A stretch of DNA of 64,000 bases from Agrobacterium vitis (GTDB taxonomy: Bacteria > Pseudomonadota > Alphaproteobacteria > Rhizobiales > Rhizobiaceae). The notes beneath the pieces are model-generated. The model worked only from the letters and a program-made list of their open reading frames with translations. It was not told the origin of the DNA and did not search any database. A program made the translations under genes and the position numbers. How positions within the stretch are numbered: position 1 is the stretch's first letter; the number at the start of each line of letters is the position of its first letter. The DNA lies in assembly GCF_014926405.1 (NCBI RefSeq), contig NZ_JACXXJ020000003.1:186001-250000 (forward strand), written 5' to 3'. Shown piece by piece: positions 3,433 to 30,297 of this stretch.

Positions 3433-3466
3433 GTAGGCTCCTCCCTATCTGTCTTGTTTTTGCCGA

Positions 3467-8763: not shown

Positions 8764-8805
8764 AAACCGAGGAAAACGACAACAATCGAGTGGGAGGAGA
8801 ACACA

Positions 8806-9843: not shown

Positions 9844-9852
9844 TCTGTCACT

Positions 9853-9876
9853 CCGGCAGGCCACCAGGCCTGCCGG
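9853..9876 (+). terminator. Perfect hairpin after the sugar-binding-protein gene
   Basis: CCGGCAGGCC (9853-9862), a 4-nt loop ACCA, then the exact complement GGCCTGCCGG (9867-9876), starting 10 bp after the stop codon. No T-run follows, so it is more likely a 3'-end stabiliser or partial attenuator than a full terminator. Such hairpins between binding-protein and membrane-component genes are known to raise the level of binding protein relative to the transporter. Confidence 0.7.
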
Positions 9877-9920
9877 CTCCATAAAGAAAGCCGGCCAGAA
9901 ATACAGCCGGAAAGGCGTGG

Positions 9921-12427: not shown

Positions 12428-12430
12428 TGG

Positions 12431-13438: not shown

Positions 13439-13454
13439 AGCCAAGGAAAATAGT

Positions 13455-14486
13455 ATGAAAGCGACTGAGAAACGCCCCATCGGCAAGACCGGCCTGACTG
13501 TCACTGCGCTTGGCGTCGGCACGGCCCCTCTTGGCGGACTATATGCAGCGGTCTCCAAGGACGATGCCACCGCCATGCTGGATCATGCCTGGGAAGCTGG
13601 TATCCGCTATTTCGATACCGCCCCCATGTATGGCAATGGCCGTTCCGAACATCTTGTTGGAGCGTTGTTGCGAGAGAAAAATCCCGAGCAACGAGACTGG
13701 ACGATCAGCACAAAGGTCGGACGCTTGATGACAACGGAGCGCGCAGGCCGAAAGCTTCCCCCCGCCCCGCCGAAAAACCCGCTTGATCCCGGCTGGTGGA
13801 ACGGCTTGGATTTCCGCGAGGTGTTCGATTACAGCTATGACGGCATCATGCGCAGCTTCGATGACAGCCAGCAGCGCCTAGGCTTTCCAAATCCCGACAT
13901 TCTCTATGTGCATGACATCGGCAGAGTTACTCATGCCGATTTGCATGAGCATCACTGGTCGACCTTGACCAAGGGCGGCGGCTTCCGGGCATTGACGGAA
14001 TTGCGCGATGCAGGTGACATCAAAGGCTTCGGCCTTGGCGTCAACGAATGGCAAATCATCCGAGATGCGCTGGAAGAAGCTGACCTCGATTGCTCCATGC
14101 TGGCGGGCCGCTATACGTTGCTCGACCAAGACGCGGAACAACAGTTCCTGCCAATCGCCCAAAAGCGCGGCATGGCGCTGGTGGTCGCAGGCGTCTTCAA
14201 TTCCGGCATTCTTGCCTCCACGACCGGTCGCCGCAAGTTTAACTACGCCGATGCTCCGCAGGAGATTATCGATAAAGCGGAAAGGCTGAGGGCAATCTGC
14301 GACAGTTTCGCCGTGCCGCTGCCTGCCGCCGCCATCCAGTTTCCGTTGCGCCATCCGGCTGCGACCTGCGTGGTGATCGGCGCAAAAACCGCAGAGCAGA
14401 TCTCCACCAATATTGGCTGGTTCGAACAGGACATTCCCGAGGATCTTTGGGCGCAACTGCGCGCCGAAGGCCTTATAAACTCCTAG
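13455..14486 (+). CDS. Aldo/keto reductase, L-fucose / D-threo-aldose 1-dehydrogenase type
   Basis: NAD(P)-dependent aldose dehydrogenase of 343 residues. The catalytic tetrad is D54, Y59 (FDTAPMYGNGRSE), K87 (ISTKVGR) and H153 (LYVHDIG). The family (D-threo-aldose 1-dehydrogenase, L-galactose dehydrogenase, pyridoxal 4-dehydrogenase) oxidises C1 of L-fucose, L-galactose or D-arabinose to the lactone. The frame is open upstream, but ATG 13455 is chosen because AAGGAAAA precedes it and the family N-terminus (RPIGKTGLTV) begins there. With FucU and the lactonase downstream it gives the first two oxidative steps: free sugar to lactone to aldonate. Confidence 0.9.
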   Translation: MKATEKRPIGKTGLTVTALGVGTAPLGGLYAAVSKDDATAMLDHAWEAGIRYFDTAPMYGNGRSEHLVGALLREKNPEQRDWTISTKVGRLMTTERAGRKLPPAPPKNPLDPGWWNGLDFREVFDYSYDGIMRSFDDSQQRLGFPNPDILYVHDIGRVTHADLHEHHWSTLTKGGGFRALTELRDAGDIKGFGLGVNEWQIIRDALEEADLDCSMLAGRYTLLDQDAEQQFLPIAQKRGMALVVAGVFNSGILASTTGRRKFNYADAPQEIIDKAERLRAICDSFAVPLPAAAIQFPLRHPAATCVVIGAKTAEQISTNIGWFEQDIPEDLWAQLRAEGLINS

Positions 14487-15877: not shown

Positions 15878-17269
15878 TCAGAACGGTGCATCAATATCAA
15901 CGACATCGATCAACTTGTGGTTGACGAATTCCTTGATGCCGAGGCCCAGCAATTCGCGGCCATAGCCCGAACGTTTGACGCCACCGAACGGCAGGTCCGC
16001 CTTGACCATGGTCGGATGGTTGATGAACACCATGCCCGTGGTGATCCGGTGGGCAAGAGCAACCCCGCGCGCGGTGTCACGGGTAAAGATCGAGCCACCC
16101 AAACCATAGGGCGTATCATTGGCGATGCGGATCGCGTCATCGTCATCCTTGGCGCGAAACAGCATGGAGACCGGGCCGAAAAACTCCCAGTAACGGGCCG
16201 GATTGTCATCGGCCAGATCGGTCAGGATGGTTGGCTGCACGAAAGCGCCCTGGTTTGGCACCGGCGGCCCGACTTCCGTGGCCGTTGCCCCATAGGACAC
16301 GGCTTCGGCAATCTTTTGACGGATCTCGTCGGCAGCACCTTGCGAGGACAGCGGCGCAAGCGTCGTTTGCGGATCGAACGGATCACCGGCTTTCAGCCCG
16401 GCCACGCCGGTTTTGTATTGTTCCAGAAAGGCATCGTAGACCGCATCAACGATAATCATCCGCTTGGACGAGACGCAGACCTGACCGCCATTCCAGTGGC
16501 GACCGAAGACTGCCCATTTCACGGTCTTTTCCATATCGGCATCGGCCAGAACCAAGAAGGCATCAGCACCTCCCAGTTCCATGGTGGATTTTTTCAGCGC
16601 CTGCCCTGCCTGCGCGGCAATGGTGGCGCCCGCGCCTTCCGAACCGGTCAAAGCCACGCCATGGACGCGCGGATCATTGAGGATCATTTCCACCTGGGTC
16701 CGCGTCGCATAAAGATTGGTGAAGGCACCCTTCGGCAGACCGGCCTCCAGCATCAACCGCTCAAAAGCGGCTGCGCATTGCGGCACATTCGACGCGTGTT
16801 TCAACAGCATGGTATTTCCGGCCGACAGCTGCGGCGCGATAATCCGGGCGATCTGGTAATAGGGGAAATTCCAGGGCTCGATGGCCAACAGCACACCGAG
16901 CGGCTCATGCACCAGGATCGCCTCACCTTCAGCCTTGTCGGCGACGGGAAGCTGTTCCGGCTTCAACAGGCGCTCGGCATTGACAGCGTAGTAATCGAGG
17001 ATGTCGGCAGAAAGCCCCACCTCGGCGCGTGCTTCAGACATCAGCTTGCCCATTTCCAGGGTCAGCAGCTTGGCATAATCATCCGTCTGTCCGCGCAGGA
17101 TTTCGGCGGCAGCATGCATGACCTTGGCGCGCTCGGCAAAGGATGTCTGTCGCCATTGCTGAAATGCGGCATCCGCCGCCGTGATGGCCGCCTGAACGGC
17201 CGCATCGGTTGCTTCGGGAAAAGTGATAAGAGTTTCGCCAGTATAGGGATTGGTTGTTGCGTAAGCCAT
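15878..17269 (-). CDS. tgnE: NAD(P)-dependent succinate-semialdehyde dehydrogenase
   Basis: Aldehyde dehydrogenase of about 463 residues. General base E231 (MELGGADAF), nucleophile C265 (GGQVCVSSKR) and the family EPWNFPYYQ motif match short GabD/SSADH enzymes. ATG 17269 is preferred over the upstream ATG at 17305 because AAGGACGG precedes it and homologs start MAYATTNPY. It oxidises succinate semialdehyde to succinate. It lies 160 bp downstream of the PotA-like gene on the same strand. In the trigonelline pathway the final organic product is succinate semialdehyde, so this is the expected last enzyme (TgnE). A general GABA-pathway role (gabD) is the alternative. Confidence 0.87.
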   Translation of the reverse strand: MAYATTNPYTGETLITFPEATDAAVQAAITAADAAFQQWRQTSFAERAKVMHAAAEILRGQTDDYAKLLTLEMGKLMSEARAEVGLSADILDYYAVNAERLLKPEQLPVADKAEGEAILVHEPLGVLLAIEPWNFPYYQIARIIAPQLSAGNTMLLKHASNVPQCAAAFERLMLEAGLPKGAFTNLYATRTQVEMILNDPRVHGVALTGSEGAGATIAAQAGQALKKSTMELGGADAFLVLADADMEKTVKWAVFGRHWNGGQVCVSSKRMIIVDAVYDAFLEQYKTGVAGLKAGDPFDPQTTLAPLSSQGAADEIRQKIAEAVSYGATATEVGPPVPNQGAFVQPTILTDLADDNPARYWEFFGPVSMLFRAKDDDDAIRIANDTPYGLGGSIFTRDTARGVALAHRITTGMVFINHPTMVKADLPFGGVKRSGYGRELLGLGIKEFVNHKLIDVVDIDAPF

Positions 17270-17430
17270 GGAACCGTCCTTTGCAGTCATTGCTGCGGCG
17301 CGCATTAAACCGACATCGGTCGCGTCGATGAGGCAATGATAGCGCTAAAGGTGGTTCTGACTGTTGATCCTAATCAAGATCGTAAAAGTTGTAGATTATA
17401 GCATTTCCAGGATATGGTTCTCCCAAAACG

Positions 17431-18507
17431 CTAGTCTGCGAAAACATGCGCTGATGCCGGATCGAACCCCAGCGCCACCGGCGCACCGATCGTCAATCCA
17501 TCCAGTGCGGCATGGCCGAAGGGCAGACGCACGGACAGGCCATGCCCGCCTTCGCTCAATAGCGCGATATGAATCGTGTTGCCGAGAAACGTAATGTCCT
17601 CAATCTTGGCAGCAAGCATTCCCGGCTCTTGAGCAGAAACCAGCGTCAACCGCTCCGGGCGCAGCATCAGCATGGCATTGCTTCCATTCTGCGCTTTCCC
17701 ATGCAACGGAATATTTCCTATGGTCAAATCACTGCCGAGCCGAATTTCAGCCTTACCGTCCCTGGCACCCGTCACCACGCAGGGCAGAAAATCGCTGTCC
17801 CCGATAAACTCCGCCACAAACCGCGTCGCCGGATTGGCATAAAGCTCGGCACCGGTGCCGATCTGGTCGATCACCCCTTTGGAAAACACCGCAATCCGGT
17901 CGGAAAGCCGCAGCGCCTCTTCCTGGTCATGGGTGACGTAGAGGATGGTGACATCCGTCTGGTGATGGATGCGGCGGATTTCGTGCTGAATTTCCTCGCG
18001 CAGTTTCTTGTCCAGCGCCGAAAGCGGCTCGTCCATCAACAGCACAGGCGGATCGTAAGCCAGCGCCCGTGCCAGTGCGACACGCTGCTGCTGACCGCCC
18101 GACATTTGCGCCGGTTTGCGATCCTCATAGCCTTCCAGCCGCACCAATTGCAGCATCTTGCGGACGCGCTCGGTGATGTCAGCCTTCGACCAGCCGCGCA
18201 TTTTCAGCGGAAAGGCGATGTTCTGACCAACAGACAAATGCGGAAACAACGTATAGCGCTGGAAGACCATGCCGATATTGCGTTGGTGCGATGGGGTCTG
18301 CAAGACACTCTTTCCCGACAGCAGCATATCGCCCGCACTCGGCTGCTCGAAACCGGCCAGAATATAAAGTGTCGTGCTCTTGCCGGACCCGGATGGGCCG
18401 AGAAAGGTCATGAACTCGCCCTTTGCCACCTCAAGATTGACATCCTGCACCGCGACCACCGGGCCATATTGCTTGCGGATACCGCGAATTTCCAGAAAAG
18501 GCGTCAT
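17431..18507 (-). CDS. Polyamine-type ABC transporter ATP-binding protein (PotA-like)
   Basis: ATPase of 358 residues with Walker A GPSGSGKST, signature MSGGQQQRVALARAL, Walker B LLMDEPLSALD and a C-terminal TOBE-like regulatory domain (from about residue 270). The spermidine/putrescine/opine importer family fits best. It overlaps the PotC-like permease by 4 bp (ATGA). It is co-oriented with the flavin-monooxygenase genes upstream, which suggests that it imports their substrate, possibly a cationic or zwitterionic compound such as trigonelline. Confidence 0.9.
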   Translation of the reverse strand: MTPFLEIRGIRKQYGPVVAVQDVNLEVAKGEFMTFLGPSGSGKSTTLYILAGFEQPSAGDMLLSGKSVLQTPSHQRNIGMVFQRYTLFPHLSVGQNIAFPLKMRGWSKADITERVRKMLQLVRLEGYEDRKPAQMSGGQQQRVALARALAYDPPVLLMDEPLSALDKKLREEIQHEIRRIHHQTDVTILYVTHDQEEALRLSDRIAVFSKGVIDQIGTGAELYANPATRFVAEFIGDSDFLPCVVTGARDGKAEIRLGSDLTIGNIPLHGKAQNGSNAMLMLRPERLTLVSAQEPGMLAAKIEDITFLGNTIHIALLSEGGHGLSVRLPFGHAALDGLTIGAPVALGFDPASAHVFAD

Positions 18508-19304
18508 GCTTTCAGTCCTTTGCGCACCAGGGCGGTGATCAGCATCAACGCGATGGTGACGACGATCAGAAGGGTGGAGGCCGCGGCAATCACCGGTGTC
18601 AGATCCTGACGCAGCGTTGCCCAGATCTTCACCGGCAGCGTTTGTAGGGTCGGGCTTGCCATGAAAATTGCCAGAACGACCTCATCCCAGGAAGTTAGGA
18701 AAGAAAACACCGCCGCCGAAAACAAGCCATGACCAATGCAGGGCAGCGTGATCAACAGCCGCGCCTTCAGCGGCGAGGCCCCGCACAGCACCGCCGCATC
18801 CTCGATGGATTTATCAAAACCTTCCAGCGCATTGGTCAGCGCCAGAATAGAGAACGGAAGCGCGACAACCAAATGGGCGATGACGAAACCGAGTGTCGTG
18901 CCGTTCAGACCGATGCGCAGGAAAAACGCATAGAGCGCCACGGCCAGCACCACAACGGGCAGGATCATCGGTGTCATGAACAGAGCCCGCAGCGCGTCCC
19001 GCCCCAGAAACCGTCCGCGCACCAGGCCGAACGACGCACAAAGCCCAATGAGCACCGACAGGATGGTGACGATGACAGCGATGCGAAAGCTGGTCCAGGC
19101 GGCATCCAGCCAGCGCGGATCGGCAAACAGCTGGCCATACCATTTGATGGTCCAGGTCGGTGGCGGAAAAATCAGCCATTGCGAGGAGCCGAAGGACAAG
19201 GCGGCGATGAACAGGATTGGCAGCAAGAGAAACGCCGCTGTCAGCAGCGTGATGACCAGCAAAATCCATTTCCAGGCACCAAGGCTGTTGAAATTCAAAA
19301 GCAT
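18504..19304 (-). CDS. Polyamine-type ABC transporter permease (PotC-like)
   Basis: Inner-membrane permease with about six helices and the BPD_transp_1 coupling loop (DAAVLCGASPLKARLLITLP). ATG 19304 (266 residues) is chosen rather than a start 27 nt upstream. It sits 1 nt after the stop of the preceding permease with GGAGGG seven bases before it, and the first helix starts shortly afterwards. It forms the pore together with the PotB-like partner. Confidence 0.9.
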   Translation of the reverse strand: MLLNFNSLGAWKWILLVITLLTAAFLLLPILFIAALSFGSSQWLIFPPPTWTIKWYGQLFADPRWLDAAWTSFRIAVIVTILSVLIGLCASFGLVRGRFLGRDALRALFMTPMILPVVVLAVALYAFFLRIGLNGTTLGFVIAHLVVALPFSILALTNALEGFDKSIEDAAVLCGASPLKARLLITLPCIGHGLFSAAVFSFLTSWDEVVLAIFMASPTLQTLPVKIWATLRQDLTPVIAAASTLLIVVTIALMLITALVRKGLKA

Positions 19305-19305
19305 G

Positions 19306-20172
19306 TCAGCGCCCTCCCTCACCGGCTGCACCGAACAGCTTCAATTGCAGGGCGTAGAGGCTCAGCGTCACCACCAGCAGCACCAGCGCCGCCGCACCGC
19401 CCATGCCCCAATTGACCAGGGATTGCACGAATTGGGCGATCAACTCGGCCAGCATCATATTGGATGTGCCGCCAAGCAGCGACGGCGTAACGAAATAACC
19501 AAGTGACATGACGAACACCATCAACCCGCCCGACACCATGCCCGGCATGGCGAGCGGCAGCAGTACCGTCACCAGCGCCTGCCAGCGCGTCGCGCCGCAA
19601 AGTGCTGCCGCCTGCAACAGCGCCGGATCGATCTTGCGGATCACCCCATAGAGCGGAATGATGATGAAGGGCAGCATGATATAGCTCATGCCAATAGTCA
19701 CGCCGACGAGGTTGTTGACCATCACCAGCGGTGTATCGATTACGCCGAGACTGATCAGCGTCTTGTTGATGACCCCGGTGCGCTGTAACAGCACCATCCA
19801 GGCATAGGTGCGGGCCAGAAGGTTGGTCCACATCGACAGCAACACGATGGCAAAGATCACGGAGGCCAATCGTTGCGGCATGATCGCCAGCGCCCAGGCG
19901 ACGGGAAAGCCGATCAGCAGCGAAATTACTGTGACCAAGGCCGAGACGAAGAACGTGTTGAAGAAGATTTTCAGATAAGTCGCACTTCCCAGCAATGCGG
20001 CATAATTGCCAAGGCCGAGAACCGGCTCCGTCACCGAGCGCGTCAGCAGAGCCAGCACCGGCAGGACGAAGAAAATCAGGATCAACACCAGCGCCGGCAG
20101 GGTCGCGGCTTTATTGCCGAAACCAAACCGGTTCCTACTGGGCTGCTCAATGGTCGAGGTCGGGGACGACAT
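19306..20172 (-). CDS. Polyamine-type ABC transporter permease (PotB-like)
   Basis: Permease of about 288 residues with six predicted helices and the EAA-type coupling loop (LLQAAALCGATRWQALVTVLLP). The frame is open to an ATG at 20217, but ATG 20172 (MSSPTS) has AAGGAAAC before it and is preferred. It is separated from the upstream binding-protein gene by a 223 bp spacer that folds into three hairpins. It is translationally close to the PotC-like gene, with a 1 nt gap. Confidence 0.89.
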   Translation of the reverse strand: MSSPTSTIEQPSRNRFGFGNKAATLPALVLILIFFVLPVLALLTRSVTEPVLGLGNYAALLGSATYLKIFFNTFFVSALVTVISLLIGFPVAWALAIMPQRLASVIFAIVLLSMWTNLLARTYAWMVLLQRTGVINKTLISLGVIDTPLVMVNNLVGVTIGMSYIMLPFIIIPLYGVIRKIDPALLQAAALCGATRWQALVTVLLPLAMPGMVSGGLMVFVMSLGYFVTPSLLGGTSNMMLAELIAQFVQSLVNWGMGGAAALVLLVVTLSLYALQLKLFGAAGEGGR

Positions 20173-20243
20173 ACCGTTTCCTTGCGAAACCAGTCCGGCA
20201 TTTTGCATTGTAAACATGCATCATGCCGTAACGCTGAGGACGC

Positions 20244-20271
20244 TCCGGCACCGGATGTTTACGGTGCCGGA
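20244..20271 (-). repeat. Perfect hairpin, third in the binding-protein/permease spacer
   Basis: TCCGGCACCG (20244-20253) and its exact complement CGGTGCCGGA (20262-20271) flank an 8-nt loop. No U-run follows in either direction, so it is more likely an mRNA-end or stability element than a terminator. It lies just before the PotB-like start. Confidence 0.6.
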
Positions 20272-20287
20272 AATGCCTTACTTTAGA

Positions 20288-20332
20288 GTTTGTCAGGGAA
20301 AAGTAGAATCCGGTTTTCCCGAAAAGACAAAC
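20288..20332 (-). repeat. Two-tier inverted repeat, second in the spacer
   Basis: Outer arms GTTTGTC (20288-20294) and GACAAAC (20326-20332) enclose inner arms GGGAAAA (20296-20302) and TTTTCCC (20314-20320). All arms are perfect complements. It is one of three hairpins between the binding-protein gene and the permease genes. Confidence 0.55.
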
Positions 20333-20334
20333 GA

Positions 20335-20388
20335 AAACAAGAGAATCTAGAGTCTGCCTGGTTCAATCTGAACCTGACAGACTCTAGA
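20335..20388 (-). terminator. Long hairpin with U-rich tail after the PotD-like gene
   Basis: TCTAGAGTCTG (20346-20356) pairs perfectly with CAGACTCTAGA (20378-20388). Inside, GGTTCA (20360-20365) pairs with TGAACC (20369-20374) around a 3-nt loop. In the direction of transcription (minus strand) the stem is followed by TTCTCTTGTTTT, so it looks like an intrinsic terminator or attenuator directly after the binding-protein stop codon. Confidence 0.7.
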
Positions 20389-20395
20389 GTATGGC

Positions 20396-21406
20396 TTATT
20401 TCGACTGCCAAGCGTACCAACGCTCACCAATCTCGTCACGGTGCTTGGCCCAATAGGCCATGTCGGCATTGACCTGTGACGCGGTCTGCTGGTCCGGCAA
20501 GGTCTTGGCGATAGCGGGGTCCATCAGCGCTGGTGACTTGGTATTCACAGGCGCATAGCCTGTCCCTGCCGCCATCTCGGCCTGACCAGCAGGCGAGGTT
20601 GCGAAAGCGATGAACTTCATCGCTGCTTCCTTGTTCTTGGTGCCCTTCGGCACGACCAACGCATCGGCTGCCGTGATATTCTGCGCCCAGGAGGTTTCAA
20701 CCGTAACCCCGGTCGCGGCCAACGCCGTCAACCGGCCATTCCAGAACGAGCCGAACGGGGCTTCGGCAGAGGCCAGCAATTGCTGCGACTGCGCACCTCC
20801 CGACCACCAGATGATGTCGGATTTGATCGTGTCGAGCTTCTTGAAGGCGCGGTCGAGATCGAGTGGATAGAGCTTGTCCGGGGTCACGCCATCCGCCAAC
20901 AGCGCGGCTTCAATCACGCCCGGTGCAGACCATTTGTAGAAGGTTCGCTTGCCGGGAAATTTCTTGGTGTCGAACAGGTCCGTCCAGCTTTTCGGGCAAG
21001 CGGCGACAGCGTCCTTGTTGCAGCCGACCACGAAGGAATAATAGAAGCTGCCGACCGAATAATCCGTCACAAAACGCGGATCGAGTGTGGTCTTGTCGAT
21101 GGTCTTGAAATCAAGCTTTTCCAGCAGGCCCTTGTCGCCAGCCTGAATGGCATAGTCGCCTTCGACATCGACGACGTCCCAGCTCACGCCCTTGGCCTCG
21201 ACCATGGCTTTGATCTTGCCGTAATCGGTCGGGCCGTCCTGAAGAACGTTGATGCCTTCTTTAGCGGTGAATTTATCCGCCCAGGCGGATTTTTGCACGT
21301 CCTGCGTGGTGCCGCCCCAACTGGTGAATACCAGGTCGGCAGCGAGTGCCTGGCTGGAGACGCCTAAGAGCAAAGCCAGCGATGCGATAATGGTTGTGTT
21401 TTTCAT
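20396..21406 (-). CDS. Polyamine-type ABC transporter substrate-binding protein (PotD-like)
   Basis: Periplasmic solute-binding protein family 1, 336 residues, with a clear Sec signal peptide ending ALA (about residue 22). Family features include VFTSWGGTTQD after cleavage and the ligand-region segment WSAPGVIEAAL. Relatives bind spermidine, putrescine or other small cations. It lies 80 bp downstream of the aldehyde dehydrogenase and upstream of three hairpins. This suggests high expression relative to the permeases and possible capture of the ring compound handled by the upstream enzymes. Confidence 0.9.
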   Translation of the reverse strand: MKNTTIIASLALLLGVSSQALAADLVFTSWGGTTQDVQKSAWADKFTAKEGINVLQDGPTDYGKIKAMVEAKGVSWDVVDVEGDYAIQAGDKGLLEKLDFKTIDKTTLDPRFVTDYSVGSFYYSFVVGCNKDAVAACPKSWTDLFDTKKFPGKRTFYKWSAPGVIEAALLADGVTPDKLYPLDLDRAFKKLDTIKSDIIWWSGGAQSQQLLASAEAPFGSFWNGRLTALAATGVTVETSWAQNITAADALVVPKGTKNKEAAMKFIAFATSPAGQAEMAAGTGYAPVNTKSPALMDPAIAKTLPDQQTASQVNADMAYWAKHRDEIGERWYAWQSK

Positions 21407-21486
21407 GTTCCCTTGTCCTTGTTTGATTGTGCCTTACCCGGATGCCGGTTGCTTCTTTTGGGCCATCCATCCGGGGCATGTTCTTT

Positions 21487-22950
21487 TCACCGCATCACGA
21501 ACGGATCGGGAAACGGGTCATCTGAGGTTTTCAACCAGACCGTCTTGGTGCGGGTATAATCCAGCACCGCAGCCATGCCGCCTTCCCGTCCATGGCCGGA
21601 CAGACCAAAGCCGCCAAACGGTGCAATCGGCGAAACGGCACGGTAGGTATTGACCCAGACGACGCCAGCGCGAAGCCCGCGTATCATCCGATGCGCGCGT
21701 GCCAGGTTTTGAGTAAACACGCCGGATGCCAGGCCATAGGCTGTGTCATTGGCCAGATGCAGCGCTTCCGCCTCACTCTCAAAAGACACCACGGACAGAA
21801 CCGGTCCAAAAAACTCCTGCGCCAGAGACGAAGAGTTGACGCCATCGCAATCGAGAATGGTCGGCGGATAGAAATTGCCCGGACCATCCGGGCGCTGCCC
21901 TCCCGTCACCAGCCGCGCACCTGCGGCGACCGAGGCCATGACCAACGCATCGACATGATCCTGCTGGCGACGGGTGGCCAGCGGTCCCACCTCTGTTGCC
22001 ATATCCAGTGGACTGCCGATGCGGATTGCTTCGGCCTTGGCCTTCAACCGGGCCAGGAATTCATCCTTCACTGAGCGGTCGACAATCAGCCGTGATCCGG
22101 CAACGCAGGACTGGCCGGTCGCGGCAAATATGCCGGAGACCTGCGCATTGGCAGCACTTTCCAGATCCGCGTCGGCAAAGACGATGAACGGCGACTTGCC
22201 GCCAAGTTCCAACGAGGTGGAGGCCAGATTTTCCGCCGAATTGCGCACCACATGCCGCGCTGCTTCTGGCCCACCGGTAAAGGCAACATGAGCGACCCTG
22301 GGATGGCGGGTCAGCGCTGCACCGCAGGACGGCCCAAATCCGGTGATGATATTGATGACACCAGGCGGGAACCCCGCCTCATGCACCAGCCGGGCAAATT
22401 CCAGCATTGGGGCCGGACCGTCTTCCGAGGCTTTCACCACCATCGTGCAGCCAGCAGCCAGCGCCGGGCCGATTTTGACCGCCGAGAGAAACAGCTGGCT
22501 GTTCCACGGAATGACCATAGCAACCACACCGACCGGCTCACGCCGCAGCCAGACATCCATATCCGGCTTATCAATTGGCAGCGTCGAGCCTTCAATCTTG
22601 TCGGCGAGCCCCGCATAATAGCGATAGTAATCCGCAACATAGGCAATTTGCGAGCTTGTTTCGCGGATGATCTTGCCGGTATCGCGGGTTTCCAACTCCG
22701 CAAGTTTTGGTGCATTGGCGGCAATCAGGTCGGCCAGTCGGTAGATCAGCTTGCCACGCTGGGTGGCTGTCATTTTTGCCCATGGCCCGTCATAGAGTGC
22801 GGTATGGGCCGCCTCGACAGCGCGGTCCACATCGGCTTCGCGCGCTTCCGGCATATCCGCCCAGACCTCGCCAGTGGCCGGATCGAGGCTTTCAAACCGC
22901 GCCTCGCCGTCACTGAAGGTACCATTGATGTAAAGCTGGAAACGTTGCAT
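21487..22950 (-). CDS. tgnC: Aldehyde dehydrogenase, candidate TgnC
   Basis: ALDH-superfamily enzyme of 487 residues with E248 (LELGGKSPFIVF), nucleophile C282 (GQSCVAGSRL) and the NAD-binding VIPWNSQL and FTGGPEAA segments. ATG 22950 is preferred over an earlier in-frame ATG because GGAG precedes it and it starts 4 nt after the LLM gene stop. Betaine-aldehyde or 4-aminobutyraldehyde dehydrogenase would be default calls. Tight coupling to a two-component flavin monooxygenase and an alpha/beta hydrolase instead fits TgnC, which oxidises the ring-opened hydroxybutyrolactone product of trigonelline to N-methylformamidomethylene succinate. The assignment is by context; the ALDH activity itself is clear. 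Confidence 0.82.
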   Translation of the reverse strand: MQRFQLYINGTFSDGEARFESLDPATGEVWADMPEAREADVDRAVEAAHTALYDGPWAKMTATQRGKLIYRLADLIAANAPKLAELETRDTGKIIRETSSQIAYVADYYRYYAGLADKIEGSTLPIDKPDMDVWLRREPVGVVAMVIPWNSQLFLSAVKIGPALAAGCTMVVKASEDGPAPMLEFARLVHEAGFPPGVINIITGFGPSCGAALTRHPRVAHVAFTGGPEAARHVVRNSAENLASTSLELGGKSPFIVFADADLESAANAQVSGIFAATGQSCVAGSRLIVDRSVKDEFLARLKAKAEAIRIGSPLDMATEVGPLATRRQQDHVDALVMASVAAGARLVTGGQRPDGPGNFYPPTILDCDGVNSSSLAQEFFGPVLSVVSFESEAEALHLANDTAYGLASGVFTQNLARAHRMIRGLRAGVVWVNTYRAVSPIAPFGGFGLSGHGREGGMAAVLDYTRTKTVWLKTSDDPFPDPFVMR

Positions 22951-22954
22951 CGCT

Positions 22955-23992
22955 TTACTCCGCAAACGCCGGCATGACATCAGCAATGAAGCGCTCCAGC
23001 GAGGCTTTCTTGCGCTCGAAGCTCATGCCTGTGTCGATCCAGAAGGAAAATTCGTCATAGCCCAGCGCCTCATAGCGTTTCAGCCGGGCGATGACCTCAT
23101 CCGCCGTGCCAACAGCCATATTGGCCCGCATCACCTCGGGTGCCAGCATGGCATTGGCGTCGATATCCTCCTGGCTCAACCGCTCGATCAGGCCCTGGTG
23201 GATTGGACGCTCGTTTTTGAACCATGCGAAAAAGTAATTGTAATAGGTGCTCAATTCCTTTGCGGCCTGGGCAATATCGGCCTCATTGGAGCCGACATAG
23301 CTATGCAGCAGTAACATGATTTTCGGACGCGGCAGGTCAGGCGACTTCTCGCAGGCGGCATTGAACCGCTGCATCAGAGTTTCGATTTCGCCGTCACCAT
23401 TCCACAGCGGCGTCACCTGCACGTTGCAGCCATTGGCCACGGCAAAATCATGGGAATTGGGATCACGCGCCGCCACCCAGAGCGGGATCGGTTCCTGCAA
23501 AGGTTTCGGTGCCGAGGTGGTCGCCGGGAAGGACCAGAATTCGCCCTCATGGGCATAGTCGCCAGCCCAGACGCCTTTGACGGCTGGAATAAGTTCGCGC
23601 ATCCGCTGCCCGGCGGTCCAGGCATCAAGGCCCGGCATCAAACGCTCATATTCAAAGGAATAGGCACCCCGGGCGATGCCGATATCCAACCGGCCATTGG
23701 TGATCAGGTCGGTCATCGCCGCCTCGCCTGCCAGCTTGATCGGATGCCAGAAGGGCGCAATCACCGTTCCGGTTCCAAGGCGGACGTTTTTCACCCGGTT
23801 GGCCAGATCGGCAATGGTCACGAACGGGTTGGGCGCAATGGTGAAATCCATGCCATGGTGTTCGCCGGTCCAGATCGCATGCATGCCACCCTTATCAGCG
23901 ATCTCACAGAGTTGCAGAAATTCCTCATAGAGGCTCTTGTGGCTCTGGCTGGCATCGAGCCGTTCCATATGGACGAAGAGAGAGAACTTCAT
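22955..23992 (-). CDS. tgnB: LLM-class flavin monooxygenase, candidate TgnB oxygenase
   Basis: Bacterial-luciferase-like TIM-barrel oxygenase of 345 residues with EHHGMDFTIAPNPF, the RLGTGTVIAPFWHP flavin region, and NGRLDIGIARG. Such enzymes use FMNH2 supplied by a partner reductase, which is encoded 3 nt upstream. In the trigonelline pathway TgnB and TgnA oxidatively open the N-methylpyridinium ring. The gene order (hydrolase, reductase, oxygenase, aldehyde dehydrogenase) and the SSADH nearby make this the best functional hypothesis. Other N-heterocycle or amide oxygenases of the LLM family remain possible. Confidence 0.82.
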   Translation of the reverse strand: MKFSLFVHMERLDASQSHKSLYEEFLQLCEIADKGGMHAIWTGEHHGMDFTIAPNPFVTIADLANRVKNVRLGTGTVIAPFWHPIKLAGEAAMTDLITNGRLDIGIARGAYSFEYERLMPGLDAWTAGQRMRELIPAVKGVWAGDYAHEGEFWSFPATTSAPKPLQEPIPLWVAARDPNSHDFAVANGCNVQVTPLWNGDGEIETLMQRFNAACEKSPDLPRPKIMLLLHSYVGSNEADIAQAAKELSTYYNYFFAWFKNERPIHQGLIERLSQEDIDANAMLAPEVMRANMAVGTADEVIARLKRYEALGYDEFSFWIDTGMSFERKKASLERFIADVMPAFAE

Positions 23993-23995
23993 GGA

Positions 23996-24916
23996 TCAAG
24001 CCTTCCTGGCAATGGAGTGAACCCGGCCTGCCGCCTCGTTGCCAACATAGACGCCAAAATTGCCAATGGAGCTTTCCGCCGAGAACCGGTTGAGAATATC
24101 CGCCGTGGCCGAGCCGCCCGGACCAGCAAGCTGGTCAACCGGAACGAAATTGCCGTATTTTGGCGCGCCGGGACCCGCAAAAGCCCGGTAAACGATATGC
24201 TGGCATCCCTCGCTCTTGTCTTCGTAGACGGAATACAGAAACCCGATGGTAATGCTGAGCCCTGTCACGTGTTCGAGATGGGCTTTCAAATCCTGCAAAG
24301 GCTCACCGCTAATCGCATGGCAACCCGGCAGGTTGCGGCCACCCTCACCCACCACAAGAACCTCGCCGTCACGCTCAATGACGGCACTCAGATGCAGCGG
24401 GCCATCGCTAGCGGCGCTGACAGCTTTTTCGGCAAGAGCAGGCGTAAAGTAACCGCCGCGCACATAGCCAAGCCCGTTCAACTCGCTCTTATCAAATGCC
24501 TGTACCCGTCCCAGCAGCACGACATGATCACCTGCCTCGATCACCTGTTCCAGGCTGCAATCAAACCAGGCAGACGTGCCGGAAAACACCGGAAAACCAT
24601 GTGGACCAGCCCGCCAGTCCACAGTTGCAAATCGGTCTTCGACCGGCCTTGCAAAGGTATTGGACACATCCTTCTGTGCATCCGACAATATATTGACGGC
24701 AAAGCCTTTGGCCTTGGTCATCACCTCAAAATTGCGCGAGGTTTTGGCGAGACAGACCAGCAGCAGAGGCGGATCGAGGGAGACCGAGGTGAAGGAATTG
24801 GCGGTAAAGCCGATGGGAGAACCATGAGGGTCAAGCGTGGTGACAACGGTGACGCCGGTGGCGAAAGCACCGAAGGCATCGCGCAGGCTGCGGGGGTCGA
24901 TTATCGCTTCGCTCAT
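23996..24916 (-). CDS. tgnA: Flavin reductase with pseudo-Nudix C-terminal domain, candidate TgnA
   Basis: 306 residues. Positions about 8-160 form the flavin-reductase (split-barrel, RutF/DIM6/NTAB) domain, with ATGVTVVTT and GFTANSFTSVSLDPP. Positions about 174-255 resemble a Nudix fold: the box region 196-220 (LPGCHAISGE then HLEHVTGL) aligns with the classical GxxxxxExxxxxxxREUxEExGU motif, but its catalytic Arg and Glu residues are gone. Hydrolase activity is therefore unlikely; ligand sensing or complex formation is possible. It ends 3 nt before the LLM oxygenase, so it most likely supplies FMNH2 to it from NAD(P)H. Confidence 0.85.
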   Translation of the reverse strand: MSEAIIDPRSLRDAFGAFATGVTVVTTLDPHGSPIGFTANSFTSVSLDPPLLLVCLAKTSRNFEVMTKAKGFAVNILSDAQKDVSNTFARPVEDRFATVDWRAGPHGFPVFSGTSAWFDCSLEQVIEAGDHVVLLGRVQAFDKSELNGLGYVRGGYFTPALAEKAVSAASDGPLHLSAVIERDGEVLVVGEGGRNLPGCHAISGEPLQDLKAHLEHVTGLSITIGFLYSVYEDKSEGCQHIVYRAFAGPGAPKYGNFVPVDQLAGPGGSATADILNRFSAESSIGNFGVYVGNEAAGRVHSIARKA

Positions 24917-24947
24917 CCGCGCACCTCACTATTGGTTTTCTCGGCAC

Positions 24948-25784
24948 TCATGGATGTGCCTCCGGTAAAGCCAGCCACGCGGCCATGATGTCATGCACCT
25001 CTTGCGGTGCCGTAAGGTTGGCCATGTGGCGATGGCCGGGAACGATCCTCGCAACACCCTGCTGCGCCTGCCCCGCCATGGTCTGCGCCATTTCAGCCGT
25101 CGAGTTCGGATCACCGGCACCCGTCAGGAACAGCGCCGGACAGGAAACCTGCGGCCAGCAGTCGGCGTAGGTTTCATCCCCATTGGCAAAGGCACGATAA
25201 GCGGTGGCATAGGCATCGATATTCATCTGCCGCAGGCATTGCTCGGTCAGGGCGCGGGCGGCAAGGCTTACCGCATCAAGGTCAAACCAGCGCTTCAACG
25301 GCCCTTCAACATCAATACCATCAACGGCAATCGATTCTGCCCGGGCAAGAACCGCCGCCTTGGCCGACACATCACGCCGGTAGACGCCGTTGACCAACGC
25401 CACGCGCCGGATTTTTTGCGGAAAGCTGGCGACGGCACCGCCTGCAATCAACGCGCCCATCGAATGACCGGCCAGATTGACCGGCCCAAGGTTGATTTCC
25501 TCCAGGAACCGGTCAAGCCAGGCCACGAAATCCGGCAGCTCACTGCCTTTCGGCAAGGCAAGACTCTGGCCATGGCCTGGCATATCGACGGCGATCACCC
25601 GATGGCTAGCGGACAGGCTTTCTATCTGCGGCCACCATGCTTCCAACCGCATGCCGACCCCATGAACCAGCACCAGCGGCTCGCCGCTGCCTTGCTCCAC
25701 ATACGCGATTCCATCAGGGGTAATCTGGCGCTCAACCGCCGGAAATGGCGATGGTGCCGTGCCTCCCATTGCTACCATCTCCAT
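24948..25784 (-). CDS. tgnD: Alpha/beta hydrolase, candidate TgnD
   Basis: Hydrolase of 278 residues with the triad S108 (AGHSMGAL nucleophile elbow), D225 (TGAGDPNS) and H253 (GHRHMANL), plus the oxyanion motif HGVG. Related enzymes split amidomethylene-succinates in vitamin B6 and trigonelline catabolism. TgnD cleaves N-methylformamidomethylene succinate to formate, CO2, methylamine and succinate semialdehyde, the last being the substrate of the SSADH encoded at the far end of this cluster. It lies between the DUF1185 gene and the flavin reductase (31 bp). Without the context it would only be a generic hydrolase. Confidence 0.82.
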   Translation of the reverse strand: MEMVAMGGTAPSPFPAVERQITPDGIAYVEQGSGEPLVLVHGVGMRLEAWWPQIESLSASHRVIAVDMPGHGQSLALPKGSELPDFVAWLDRFLEEINLGPVNLAGHSMGALIAGGAVASFPQKIRRVALVNGVYRRDVSAKAAVLARAESIAVDGIDVEGPLKRWFDLDAVSLAARALTEQCLRQMNIDAYATAYRAFANGDETYADCWPQVSCPALFLTGAGDPNSTAEMAQTMAGQAQQGVARIVPGHRHMANLTAPQEVHDIMAAWLALPEAHP

Positions 25785-25799
25785 CTCGCCGCCCCCCGT

Positions 25800-26402
25800 T
25801 TATACGCCGGCCGGGTTGGCGACATCCTGGCCCAGGTCTTTCAGGTCCTGATAGCGGTCACCAATCCGGTGATGGGGCCTTCCGCCGACAGACGCCCCAA
25901 GCCCGACGACAATTTCGTCAGCGGCTGGTGCATCGGCAATCGCCGCCTGGATCGTCAGGTAATGGGAGCGGCGGCCTTCGTCATTCTTGTCCATCAATGG
26001 GATCATGATTGGGGCATTGGCCGGACCGCGCGTATTGCAGAAGGCGAGATAGGATTTTGCCCCCACCGCCGTGCGGTAATGGTTGCCGAAACGCAACGTA
26101 TGGATCAGCGCCGAAGCATGCTCGATCTCGCCATCAAGACCGACAACGGCAACTTTGCCATAGGCCTCGACCGCTTCGCCAGAGCCGACGGCTTCCAGAA
26201 TCATGCCTGTCAGAAGCTCACCGAGAACCGGGGCGCATTGATGAATTTCCGGTTTCAGATCCTCGACAAAGCCGCGTCCAGCCCAGGGATTTTTAACGAC
26301 AGCAAAAGCCGCGTAGAGCTTCAATGGTGTCGGCGCTGCCTTGCCGCCTTCCACCAAGGTGGTTTCCACATGGAGTAGGGTTTTGCGGATGTGCAGGGCC
26401 AT
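25800..26402 (-). CDS. DUF1185 (amino acid synthesis) family protein
   Basis: 200 residues matching the amino-acid-synthesis family (DUF1185), with MALHIRKTLLHVETTLVEGG, the AVVKNPWAGRG stretch and the KSYLAFCNTRGP segment. No catalytic role is established for the family; members are often found beside amide- or heterocycle-degradation genes. It is the first gene of the monooxygenase operon and its promoter carries a probable GntR operator. Its position suggests a step or accessory role in the pathway, not amino acid biosynthesis. The function is unknown. Confidence 0.85.
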   Translation of the reverse strand: MALHIRKTLLHVETTLVEGGKAAPTPLKLYAAFAVVKNPWAGRGFVEDLKPEIHQCAPVLGELLTGMILEAVGSGEAVEAYGKVAVVGLDGEIEHASALIHTLRFGNHYRTAVGAKSYLAFCNTRGPANAPIMIPLMDKNDEGRRSHYLTIQAAIADAPAADEIVVGLGASVGGRPHHRIGDRYQDLKDLGQDVANPAGV

Positions 26403-26422
26403 GGCTTACCTCAAATATCAAT

Positions 26423-26468
26423 CTTGGTATTATGGTATGCCAAGCTATTTCAGAGTCAAGTGACTTGT
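26423..26468 (-). promoter_or_regulatory. Promoter/operator of the monooxygenase operon
   Basis: TTATGGTATGCCA (about 26430-26442) lies inside a larger near-palindrome with arms CTTGGTA and TGCCAAG (26423-26444). The same TTATGGT-N3-CCA core appears upstream of the gntR gene. On the minus strand a -35-like TTGACT (complement of 26454-26459) sits just upstream of it, and a perfect 11-bp palindrome CAAGTGACTTG (26458-26468) overlaps that element. The position over a promoter supports repression by the adjacent FCD-type GntR protein. Confidence 0.55.
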
Positions 26469-26503
26469 CGAGCAGGAATTATTTTTTCTTTTAAGGAATA
26501 TAC

Positions 26504-27196
26504 CTATTCGACCTCAACGGCGGATCGGGCCTGCTGCGCAAGCACCGCGACGGCAATAGAGGAGGCGCGCTGAACATGATCAATTGCCGCCTGCTCGGCA
26601 GCACGTCCATCGCCATTGCGGATCGCCTCGACAATCCGTTGCATCTGGGCTGGTCCCTCCGTCGCCCGGCCATCGGTCTTGATGGTCATAGAGCGCAAAT
26701 GGTTGATCCGCACGGTCATTTGCCGCACCACGCCCCAGGCGACCTGCCTATCAATCCGGGTAAACAAGGTCTCGTAAAATCGCGTCGTTTCCCTCAAGAC
26801 ATCAGCCATGTCCTGGCGAGCATAGCCACCCTTGATCGCGTCGAGCGCCTCTGACAAGCCAGCCACAATAGCCGGATCCCCCCTCTCCGCACAAAGCCGC
26901 GCCGCCATGCCTTCCAAAGCCGCACGGATTTCATAGATCTGCCGGGCTTCATCGACATCCAGCAGCGCCACCATCGGCCCCTTGCTTTGGGGATTGCTGA
27001 CCAGCCCCTCGGACTCCAGATGCCGCAGCACTTCGCGCACCACCGTTCGGCTGACCCCAAGCTGCGCGCAGAGATCACGCTCGACCAGCCGGTCGCCCGG
27101 CTTGAAATAACCGCTGATGATCGCATCGCGGACTTTCTCAAGCGCCAACTCTCTGAGCGTCTTGGTGGGGCGTTCCACCTTTATGGTCTCTGTCAT
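26504..27196 (-). CDS. GntR-family regulator, FCD subfamily, of the monooxygenase operon
   Basis: 230 residues from ATG 27196 (a TTG at 27217 is also in frame). The winged helix contains LVERDLCAQLGVSRTVVREV, and the FCD domain follows from about residue 85 (IYEIRAALEGMAARL). It is transcribed in the same direction as the DUF1185-led operon but is separated from it by 101 bp containing an operator-like palindrome. A matching palindrome lies upstream of its own gene. It probably represses both units and is released by the pathway substrate or an intermediate. Confidence 0.9.
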   Translation of the reverse strand: MTETIKVERPTKTLRELALEKVRDAIISGYFKPGDRLVERDLCAQLGVSRTVVREVLRHLESEGLVSNPQSKGPMVALLDVDEARQIYEIRAALEGMAARLCAERGDPAIVAGLSEALDAIKGGYARQDMADVLRETTRFYETLFTRIDRQVAWGVVRQMTVRINHLRSMTIKTDGRATEGPAQMQRIVEAIRNGDGRAAEQAAIDHVQRASSIAVAVLAQQARSAVEVE

Positions 27197-27254
27197 TCCC
27201 TCAAGCCTTCCCGGCAACCAGACCGCTCATAAAGAGCAGGCAATTCACCCGTAT

Positions 27255-27297: not shown

Positions 27298-27765
27298 TCA
27301 CGATTTCGGTTTGGCATGGCGGGTTTTCAGTACATTGCGAATGGAAAAGCTGGAGTGGATGCGCGCTACGCCCGGCAGTTTGGCCAGGATTTCCTTGTGG
27401 ATGCGTTCAAAGTCATGGGCGCTTTCGACTTCCAGTTTCAAGAGGTAATCCGATCCGCCGGTCATCAGGAAACATTCCTGGATTTCCGGATATTTCCGGA
27501 TCGCCGCCTCAAAGCGGTTGAGATGGTCCTCGGTCTGACGGTCCAGTGTGATGTTGATGATGACGGCAATACCATCGTCCTTATCAGACTTGCCGAGAAT
27601 GGCGGTATAGCCGCTGATATAACCCTGCTTTTCAAGCAGCGCGACACGCCGCAGGCAGGCTGAGGCGGAAAGCCCGACAGCCGCCGCCAGACTGGCATTG
27701 CTGATGCGCGCATTCAGCTGCAATTGGCGCATAATGGCCCGGTCGATGGCGTCAATACCACTCAC
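27298..27765 (-). CDS. Lrp/AsnC-family transcriptional regulator
   Basis: 155 residues. The helix-turn-helix (LAAAVGLSASACLRRVALLE) and the RAM effector-binding domain (FLMTGGSDYLLKLEV) are clear. The open frame runs far upstream, but a GTG at 27765 with GAGGA seven bases before it gives the family's usual length and the standard start (GIDAIDRAIMRQLQ). It is divergent from the alanine racemase and D-amino-acid dehydrogenase genes. In rhizobia and pseudomonads such a regulator activates dad genes in response to alanine, and that role is likely here. Confidence 0.9.
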   Translation of the reverse strand: MSGIDAIDRAIMRQLQLNARISNASLAAAVGLSASACLRRVALLEKQGYISGYTAILGKSDKDDGIAVIINITLDRQTEDHLNRFEAAIRKYPEIQECFLMTGGSDYLLKLEVESAHDFERIHKEILAKLPGVARIHSSFSIRNVLKTRHAKPKS

Positions 27766-27889
27766 GCAACAATCCTCGTTTTCTTCGTATAAAATTGCGC
27801 AGAAATTCACAAAGCACAAGAGTTGCCGATAAACCGCCCGGAAATTTCGCGAATCTTTCAATATCATCGAGAAAAAACGGGGTGCAGTT
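27766..27889. promoter_or_regulatory. Divergent Lrp/dadX control region
   Basis: The 124 bp between the divergent regulator and racemase starts are AT-richer than the flanking genes. This is the expected site of Lrp-type binding, but no exact repeat could be singled out by eye. Confidence 0.35.
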
Positions 27890-29014
27890 ATGGACATGTC
27901 TATCAGCCAGGATCTGAATGCCGATGCGTTTTCCGCCCGCCTCGTGATCGACCTCGACGCGCTTGCCGACAATTACCGCCAATTGGCCGCTGAGGCCACC
28001 CCGGCGGAAACCTCCGCAGTCGTCAAGGCCGATGCCTATGGCCTTGGAGCCGCCCGCGTCGGCCCCGCGCTCTACCGGGCTGGATGCCGGAAGTTCTTCG
28101 TGGCGCATGTGCAGGAAGCCGCCGGGCTAAGGCAGCATTTGCCTGGGGATGCCGAGCTATTCATTCTCAATGGCTTGCAGCCGGGCGCAGAACCCTTTGC
28201 CGCAGCAAATGGCTTCATACCGGTGCTGAATTCGTTGGAACAGCTTGCCAATTGGTCGAAAATGGCAAGCGAGTTCGGACGAACCCTGCCCGCGATCCTG
28301 CAATTTGATACCGGCATGTCGCGGCTAGGATTTTCACCGGAAGAAGCCAATGTTCTCGCTGGCGACCCCGCCCTGTTGTCCGGCACTTCCATCCGCTACA
28401 TCATGAGCCATCTCGCCTCAGCCGATGACAGCGCCAGCCCCCAGAACGCCGCGCAATTTGCTGTCATGCGCGAGCGACTGGCGCAATTTCCAGGCATTGC
28501 CTTGTGCTTTTCCAATTCGGGCGGCATCTTTATCGACAAGCAGTTTCACGGCGCGCTGGTGCGCCCCGGCGTTGCCCTTTACGGTGCGGTCCCCAGCGAT
28601 CTGGCGGGAGGCCGTATGAAGCCGGTGGTGCGGGTCGATGCGAAAGTCATCCAGACACGAACGGTGCCAGCCGGAGCCTGCGTCGGCTACGGCGCGACCT
28701 ATGTGGCCACCAAGGAAACCAGGCTGGCCACAATCGCTATTGGCTATGCCGATGGTCTGCCGCGTTGCTTGAGCGACCGGGGTGCCGCTTACTATGGTGA
28801 CATCCGTTTGCCGATTGTCGGGCGGGTGTCGATGGACAGCATGACACTCGATATATCGGCCTTGCCACCCGGCACGTTGAGGCTGGGAAGTCTGGTGGAG
28901 ATGATTGGTCCGCACCAGAGTCTTGAGGATGTGGCGCAAGCGGCGGGCACCATCGCCTATGAAATTCTGACCAGCCTTGGTCATCGCTATCACCGCGACT
29001 ATATTTCAGCATAA
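27890..29014 (+). CDS. dadX: Alanine racemase (catabolic, DadX type)
   Basis: PLP enzyme of 374 residues. The PLP lysine is K46 ([11 protein letters not shown]) and the second catalytic base is Y267 (VGYGATY), followed by the IGYADGLPR signature; [11 protein letters not shown] is also conserved. It interconverts L- and D-alanine. The next gene, 17 bp downstream, is a D-amino-acid dehydrogenase, so the pair converts L-alanine to D-alanine to pyruvate for catabolism. Hence the DadX name, not biosynthetic Alr. A start two codons later (MSISQ) is possible. Confidence 0.9.
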
Positions 29015-29031
29015 GAATATTGGGGAACGAC

Positions 29032-30297
29032 ATGAAAGTTACCATTCTGGGCGCGGGCGTCATCGGGGTCACCAGTGCTTACTATCTCGCCAAAGCTGGC
29101 CACGAGGTCACGGTCATCGACCGGCAGACGGGTCCGGCCCTGGAAACCAGCTTTGCCAATGCAGGCGAAGTGTCCTTCGGCTACTGCTCGCCCTGGGCAG
29201 CGCCCGGCATTCCGCAAAAAGCGTTGAAATGGCTGTTCATGGAACATGCCCCGCTGATCCTGCGGCCAAAAATCGATGCTGCCATGTTGGGTTGGATGCT
29301 GAGAATGCTCTCCAACTGCACCTCCGGGCGTTATGCGATCAACAAGAGCCGGATGCTGCGGCTGGCCGATTACAGCCGCATTGCGCTGGCGCAACTGCGC
29401 ACAGAAACCAATATCGACTACGACCAGCGCATGCAGGGGACTTTGCAGCTGTTTCGCACTCAGGCGCAGCTGGATGCCTCGGCGAAGGATGTGAAAGCAC
29501 TGGCGGCAGACGGTATTCCCTATGAAGTGCTGGACCGCGAAGCCTGCATCCGGGTCGAGCCTGCCTTGGCGGCAGCCCGCCACAAAATCGTCGGCGGCTT
29601 GCTGACGCCTAAGGACGAGACCGGCGACTGTTTCAAATTCACCAACCAGCTCGCTGAAAAGGCCGCCTCGCTTGGCGTGGTGTTCGACTATGGCCGCAGC
29701 ATAGAGCGGCTGGTGGTATCGGGTGGCAAGGTGACCGGCGTTGTTACCGACAGGGGAACCGAAACCGCCAACGCCTATGTCGTTGCACTCGGCAGCTATT
29801 CGCCGCTGCTGCTGAAGCCGCTCGGCATCACGCTGCCGGTCTATCCGGTCAAGGGCTATTCGCTGACCATTCCGATTGTCGATCCGTCGAAATCCCCCGA
29901 ATCCACCGTGATGGACGAAACCTACAAGATCGCCATCACCCGGTTGGGCGACCGGATCAGGGTGGGCGGCATGGCGGAAATTTCCGGCTATACCAATGAT
30001 CTGGGTGCCGCGCGTCGCCGCACACTCGAACATTCCGTCACCGACCTGTTTCCCGGCGGCGATATGGCGCGGGCCGATTTCTGGTCCGGCCTTCGCCCGA
30101 TGACGCCGGATGGCACGCCAGTAATCGGCGCAACCGGCATCAGCAATCTCTATATCAACAGCGGCCATGGAACATTGGGCTGGACAATGAGCTGCGGTTC
30201 AGGCCGTTTGCTCGGCGACATCGTCAGTGGTCGCCAGACCGAAATCGACAATGCCGATCTGGCGCTCAGCCGCTATGCTGCCGGTCGCGCCGGATAA
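29032..30297 (+). CDS. dadA: D-amino-acid dehydrogenase small subunit (DadA)
   Basis: FAD enzyme of 421 residues of the DAO family with [15 protein letters not shown] at the N-terminus and the DadA features [16 protein letters not shown] and [14 protein letters not shown]. It oxidises D-alanine and other D-amino acids to 2-oxo acids, passing electrons to the quinone pool at the inner face of the membrane. ATG 29032 with GGGGAACG is preferred to a TTG four codons earlier. It forms an operon with dadX. Confidence 0.92.

Follow-up and report, generated by a model that had tools for sequence, protein, structure and literature searches.

What does the operon on the minus strand at 15878–27217 of a 64,000-nucleotide stretch of Agrobacterium vitis DNA (the window; G000:C3:186001–250000 of a 6.4-Mb genome) import and degrade? 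All coordinates below are window positions unless a contig or another locus is named. An earlier note on this DNA had proposed a cluster for trigonelline (N-methylnicotinate), and gene-for-gene matches with the tgn cluster of Acinetobacter baylyi support that identity: the window holds an intact-looking tgn operon in an A. vitis-type genome, a kind of cluster that is already known, which very probably imports trigonelline and degrades it by the Tgn route. For this reading, gene content, orthology, gene order and palindrome conservation were computed, and the chemistry was taken from the literature. New in this analysis are the identification of TgnF, the displaced succinate-semialdehyde dehydrogenase (SSADH), a palindrome and the tie between TgnF and TgnD.

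The tgn pathway of A. baylyi was reportedly defined by Perchat et al. in 2018. Our reference was the DSM 14961 locus, fetched by name (L100), in which DUF1330 and a divergent GntR gene are followed by genes for a PF06684 protein, hydrolase, flavin reductase, LLM oxygenase, aldehyde dehydrogenase, NCS1 permease, porin, SSADH and CMD protein (the names NCS1, DUF1330 and CMD were taken over from annotated L086 and L088 genes that match, and 'porin' was read from the sequence). The window shares with it the GntR regulator, TgnF (DUF1185), TgnD, TgnA, TgnB and TgnC, the order of the five enzyme genes being unchanged, and a palindrome before the tgnF gene, which in A. baylyi has one mismatch. From 27217 down to 15878, the parts are as follows (percentages are identities to the cluster proteins of A. 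baylyi or Sinorhizobium meliloti):

26504..27217, minus strand: GntR-family regulator with FCD domain (FadR subfamily); Pfam FCD 1.3e-23, GntR 9.6e-17; 43.8% A. baylyi, 72.9% S. meliloti
26432..26443, minus strand: predicted operator TTGGCATACCAT (consensus TGGTATACCA), about 30–40 bp before the PF06684 start codon
25800..26402, minus strand: PF06684/DUF1185 (AA_synth, 'amino acid synthesis') protein, TgnF orthologue; Pfam E = 1.9e-66; 75.0% A. baylyi
24948..25784, minus strand: alpha/beta hydrolase, TgnD orthologue; 52.5% A. baylyi
23996..24916, minus strand: flavin reductase, TgnA orthologue (reductase component); Pfam Flavin_Reduct 7.2e-40; 40.4% A. baylyi, 63.8% S. meliloti
22955..23992, minus strand: LLM-class flavin-dependent oxygenase, TgnB orthologue; 69.9% A. 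baylyi; tree group with support 100/99
21487..22947, minus strand: aldehyde dehydrogenase, TgnC orthologue; 68.9% A. baylyi, 81.9% S. meliloti
20396..21406, minus strand: PotD-like solute-binding protein of an ABC importer; SBP_bac_8 1.3e-41; 82.7% S. meliloti
19306..20217, minus strand: PotB-like permease; NCBIfam PotB best, under its cut-off; 82.6% S. meliloti
18504..19331, minus strand: PotC-like permease; NCBIfam PotC best, under its cut-off; 78.1% S. meliloti
17431..18507, minus strand: PotA-like ATPase; NCBIfam PhnT2/PotA best, under their cut-offs; 75.4% S. meliloti
15878..17305, minus strand: SSADH-type aldehyde dehydrogenase, not a TgnE orthologue; best NCBIfam PRK09406 NADP-dependent SSADH, 477 bits against a cut-off of 730

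Every frame is open, as judged from the list of open reading frames and profile searches, and all the genes named in the earlier note are present on this strand, with catabolic genes as closely packed as it had described (31 bp between hydrolase and reductase, 3 bp between reductase and oxygenase, 7 bp between oxygenase and aldehyde dehydrogenase); its list had, however, overlooked the PF06684 gene, which lies inside its own coordinates. For the GntR gene a mechanical TTG start gives 27217, and an in-frame ATG gives 27196, the probable start and also the end chosen in the earlier note; for the TgnC-type gene the ATG at 22947 agrees with homologues, the mechanical frame beginning at 22986. A promoter scan was uninformative (5 sites against 4.5 expected), and terminator-like stems numbered 24 against 11.4 expected.

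For the oxygenase and the hydrolase, best matches between the two genomes were searched in one direction each. Searched against the A. baylyi genome, the window's LLM protein found the tgn-cluster gene first (71%, 583 bits) and a distant runner-up (27%, 112 bits); the A. baylyi cluster hydrolase, searched against the window's genome, found the window hydrolase (52%, 281 bits) well ahead of the next (25%, 35 bits). In this comparison with A. baylyi, neither protein proved closer to another characterised pathway, the outcome that the earlier note had named as fatal to its proposal. When 128 LLM proteins were thinned to 63 and a tree was built, all 51 with at least 60% identity to the window protein, those of A. 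baylyi and S. meliloti included, fell into a single group (support 100/99), and the JGI name 'flavin-dependent trigonelline monooxygenase, oxygenase component' is attached to 7 of 120 LLM relatives among the matches listed. The cluster includes a TgnB-type oxygenase with an adjoining TgnA-type reductase, a TgnC-type aldehyde dehydrogenase, a TgnD-type hydrolase and TgnF; it has no TgnE orthologue. The two aldehyde dehydrogenases are not interchanged, the one at 21487–22947 being TgnC (69%) and the other not TgnE (30%).

Beyond this pair, we surveyed 128 loci chosen by LLM protein similarity (the window, 8 of 326 plasmid records, 80 further loci and 39 stretches), a redundant set in which L163 and L184 look like one contig, S. 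meliloti is represented by two records, and Burkholderiales and Acinetobacter are numerous. Twelve loci with an LLM protein below 60% identity were set apart before counting; they contain AA_synth in 6, hydrolase in 7, flavin reductase in 7, aldehyde dehydrogenase in 7 and GntR in 2. In the 116 counted loci the core is nearly constant: AA_synth in 114 (missing from L166, a 6.1-kb contig, and from L197), hydrolase in 115, flavin reductase in 112 and aldehyde dehydrogenase in 115; 8 loci lack a same-strand flavin reductase within 3 kb, and 3 lack a hydrolase within 4 kb. A small DUF1330 or NIPSNAP protein accompanies 90 of these loci, but not the window. The same arrangement of core genes is seen in Alpha-, Beta- and Gammaproteobacteria and is therefore not due to chance. 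Within the genus the LLM gene is patchy: at E <= 1e-80, besides the genome that holds the window, 14 of 35 same-genus genomes have it. Three Caballeronia loci (L116, L118, L120) carry two adjoining, divergent tgn-like clusters, the second with an LLM protein at 60–61%; in the first, no flavin reductase could be recognised beside the LLM gene.

The literature link to trigonelline runs through S. meliloti, whose orthologous operon consists of GntR, AA_synth, hydrolase, flavin reductase, LLM, aldehyde dehydrogenase, NIPSNAP, PotDBCA and SSADH genes. In strain ml46 (L084), the annotated record, this counterpart (83%) is a pSymA locus flanked on one side by noeB, where insertion-sequence genes also occur, and on the other by nifT-nifB; the record of strain 2011 (L083) is unannotated. 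The S. meliloti operon has the same core as the window, the same importer (75–83% identity) and its GntR gene on the same strand; unlike the window's operon, it has a NIPSNAP gene after the aldehyde dehydrogenase and a TgnE-like SSADH (56.4% to A. baylyi). According to a passage of PMC4207669, 10 mM trigonelline supports growth of wild-type S. meliloti but not of a strain lacking pSymA. In the context of the trigonelline link, Goldmann et al. are cited in a passage of PMC12489286, and Boivin et al. appear in the reference list of PMC10228743. The legume setting of the earlier note needs correction for the window, whose genome looks like one of the Agrobacterium vitis complex, which is associated with grapevine and is not a legume symbiont; the nearest named AA_synth relative is an A. 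vitis protein at 98% identity (P0125).

Several observations weigh against the assignment to trigonelline. The growth result spans a megaplasmid of more than 1 Mb rather than the operon alone, and the annotated pSymA locus comes from another strain; the flavin reductase is only 40% identical to that of A. baylyi; and the SSADH of the operon, at 30.4% identity to A. baylyi TgnE, is no orthologue of that enzyme and has its substrate assigned by family resemblance.

The same chemistry might instead be directed at a related N-methylpyridinium or pyridine carboxylate, such as homarine or N-methylnicotinamide. The enzyme set does seem to serve more than one substrate, because LLM relatives of about 40% identity (L087, L206 and L207) are encoded in comparable clusters whose transporters and regulators differ. 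Yet the window's LLM protein groups with that of A. baylyi (70%), apart from these relatives, the core order and the palindrome are common to the window and A. baylyi, and pSymA is required for S. meliloti to grow on trigonelline. PMC8269262 assigns ring opening to TgnA/TgnB, argues that TgnAB are unlikely to act on homarine, and describes homarine as less effective than trigonelline for growth of Ruegeria pomeroyi; no gene-level paper on homarine as a substrate was found among the literature matches listed. We consider a substrate other than trigonelline very improbable for the window's operon.

The more distant clusters merit description in their own right. In L087 (Ensifer canadensis, 1911–14017), L206 and L207, an LLM gene of about 40% identity is accompanied by flavin reductase, aldehyde dehydrogenase and hydrolase genes, with a PF06684 gene some kilobases off; L087 also has a CMD-family protein and an amino-acid-type ABC importer, and no exact TGGTATACCA site was found in any of the three. 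These clusters probably represent a second N-heterocycle pathway. LLM relatives at 49–51% (L198–L201), with exact palindromes in 2 of 4, look like a rearranged version of tgn; eight relatives near 37–42% have no exact palindrome and lie partly beside other transporters.

The ends of the operon differ from those of A. baylyi: the window has PotABCD, an unrelated SSADH and a GntR gene on the operon strand, whereas an NCS1 permease, a porin, TgnE, a CMD-family protein, DUF1330 and a divergent GntR gene are found in A. baylyi, and none of these five accessory genes was found in the window by tblastn. Transporters vary throughout the survey, PotD-type genes occurring in 57 and NCS1 permeases in 46 of the 116 loci (within 10 kb: PotD only 42, NCS1 only 31, both 15, neither 28). 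The earlier note had seen the ABC importer as the mark of a rhizobial version; PotD-type importers beside tgn are, however, also present in Paracoccus, Gemmobacter, Pseudochelatococcus and Burkholderiales, so this importer is not a rhizobial invention.

The wider spacing of the downstream genes (80 bp between aldehyde dehydrogenase and PotD, 178 bp between PotD and PotB, 125 bp between PotA and SSADH) would fit a partial module, in which the degradation genes work and the importer and SSADH serve another pathway that merely lies downstream. Also in keeping with this, the window-type SSADH is present in only 5 of the 116 loci, and an operator-like site precedes none of the 57 PotD-type genes. 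On the other hand, PotDBCA follows the aldehyde dehydrogenase on the same strand in S. meliloti (75–83%), in Mesorhizobium L089 (57–67%), in Paracoccus and in others, and the product of TgnD requires an SSADH. We regard such a split as improbable, and importer and SSADH as probable parts of the trigonelline operon.

The last enzyme is, on sequence comparison, an unrelated replacement for TgnE. The earlier note's proposed alignment with TgnA–E bore out TgnA to TgnD at the identities listed above, but its equation of the in-operon SSADH with TgnE did not hold, and a TgnE-like protein (56%) is encoded elsewhere on the same contig, outside the operon (G000:C3:405660–407102). The enzyme is likewise distant from the S. 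meliloti SSADH (32.6%), which is itself TgnE-like. Eight of its 10 nearest solved structures are named SSADH and two putative or NAD-dependent aldehyde dehydrogenase, the best being a putative aldehyde dehydrogenase. The five loci with a window-type SSADH at this place are the window and four same-genus genomes (L170–L173). Since 72 of the 116 loci showed no TgnE-like SSADH at up to 10 kb from the LLM gene, we did not treat this enzyme as defining for tgn.

The constancy of TgnF bears on what this protein does. The DUF1185 protein was named TgnF in PMC7913881, in a passage that also reports its stimulation of TgnE-dependent succinate semialdehyde oxidation, and the chance that TgnF acts with the SSADH itself, as reported there, rather than at the hydrolase step, falls only slightly short of even. 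TgnF is nevertheless present in 114 of the 116 loci, as against 49 that have an SSADH, whichever its type, no farther than 10 kb from the LLM gene, although an SSADH may sit elsewhere in loci without one nearby, as in the window's own genome. In 112 of 112 loci the hydrolase gene follows directly on tgnF, and in 93 of these the end of tgnF overlaps the hydrolase start, as counted with mechanically picked hydrolase start codons that match the annotation in L085, L086, L088 and L089. Histidines 95, 101, 147 and 177 of TgnF are invariant.

We tentatively suggest, while leaning somewhat against it, that TgnF and the PF06684/DUF1185 members beside LLM/hydrolase pairs are partner enzymes of TgnD rather than SSADH helpers. 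With equal reserve, we propose that TgnF would clear an N-methyl enamine, or decarboxylate formylsuccinate, left by TgnD, comparable to RutC and its enamine. The stimulation of TgnE could then be apparent, because TgnF would make succinate semialdehyde available faster. RutC belongs to the Rid proteins, and a search with TgnF listed a Rid protein first after PF06684's own two entries, among the matches listed; the Rut pathway of uracil catabolism, like tgn, employs an LLM oxygenase, a flavin reductase and an alpha/beta hydrolase on an N-heterocycle. A second, distant PF06684 gene of the genome (32% to TgnF; G000:C3:1363966–1364487, L209 8955–9488) lies beside a divergent GntR-like gene.

The palindrome before the tgnF gene is shared almost throughout the survey. 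When up to one mismatch is allowed, the 150 bp preceding the PF06684 start contain TGGTATACCA in 110 of 114 loci, 79 of them with an exact copy and 31 with a single mismatch; dinucleotide shuffles predict 0.48 loci. The palindrome was discovered in 30 of the 114 loci, which are relatives and not independent draws, and is present in 80 of the 84 outside the discovery set. A GntR gene is found in 104 of the 110 loci with the site and in none of the 4 without, and no locus has GntR but no site. In the window, TTGGCATACCAT at 26432–26443 is the sole match of TTGGYATACCAW at up to one mismatch (0.59 expected). The palindrome also precedes TgnE-like SSADH genes, exactly in 6 of 43 (including A. baylyi) and with one mismatch in 11, against backgrounds of 0.9% and 1.1% of random 260-bp stretches from the same loci; it precedes none of the 57 PotD-type genes and none of the 5 window-type SSADH genes.

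We infer that the cluster GntR binds this palindrome. A passage of PMC4494728 gives the FadR-subfamily consensus as NyGTM-N0-1-KACNy with TKGT/ACMA boxes, which TGGTATACCA fits with spacer 0, its GT–AC distance being 2 nt against the typical 3 nt. A GntR site of the type T-N-GT-N3-AC-N-A, tried first, was present in only 1 of 30 loci (L177, far upstream) and was rejected. The window's own genome contains 4 exact WTGGYATACCAW sites, two of them on C5, against 1 for a reversed-pattern control; the site at C3:494049 was dropped as a further regulon member, being inside a reading frame. No report of this operator was found among the literature matches listed for trigonelline, Tgn and operator, which included many unrelated letter matches and left subscription papers mostly out of reach.

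Taken together, the parts suggest the following course. The ABC transporter would take up trigonelline, and the TgnA-type flavin reductase would supply reduced flavin to the TgnB-type LLM oxygenase, which would cleave the pyridinium ring between C5 and C6 to give formamido-hydroxybutyrolactone. The TgnC-type aldehyde dehydrogenase would convert this to (N-methylformamidomethylene)succinate, from which the TgnD-type hydrolase, probably together with TgnF, would release formate, methylamine, CO2 and succinate semialdehyde, the presumed substrate that the in-operon SSADH would oxidise to succinate. The intermediates and the C5–C6 cleavage are those reportedly described by Perchat et al. in 2018. 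The GntR/FCD regulator is predicted to sit at TGGTATACCA ahead of tgnF, and trigonelline, its likely ligand, would probably make it release the operon. Hydrolase and flavin reductase are seen as one reading frame in 8 loci (annotated as a single gene in L089), which supports their joint action; these one-frame TgnD–TgnA type genes, of 558–615 codons, are in L089 (7202–9001), L143, L145, L158, L165, L167, L188 and L189.

Elsewhere in the genome, a TIGR03105 (type III glutamine synthetase) gene above the curated cut-off is found at G000:C3:501081–502367 (L214; L216 13082–14368), near frames that, read by eye, resemble an amidotransferase and partners; this gene and its neighbours would possibly assimilate the released methylamine. 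Next to the operon, at 27298–30297, an Lrp/AsnC regulator is divergent from frames resembling alanine racemase and D-amino-acid dehydrogenase, a dad-type locus in which the Lrp protein alone was profile-searched and the other frames were named by reading of the sequence.

Trigonelline is a plant compound that, according to PMC8269262, is also present in marine plankton samples. In our survey, five enzyme genes (TgnF, D, A, B, C) make up the conserved core of tgn, and the transporter, SSADH and accessory proteins at its ends are exchangeable. Shared by almost every locus of the survey, across Rhizobiaceae, Acinetobacter and Burkholderia, the predicted operator offers a simple search handle for trigonelline regulons, including unlinked genes. 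The tie between TgnF and TgnD makes the role of the PF06684 family, for which structures have been solved, directly testable; and if TgnF is indeed a partner of TgnD, the clusters with LLM proteins at 40% identity would be further N-heterocycle pathways built on the same logic.

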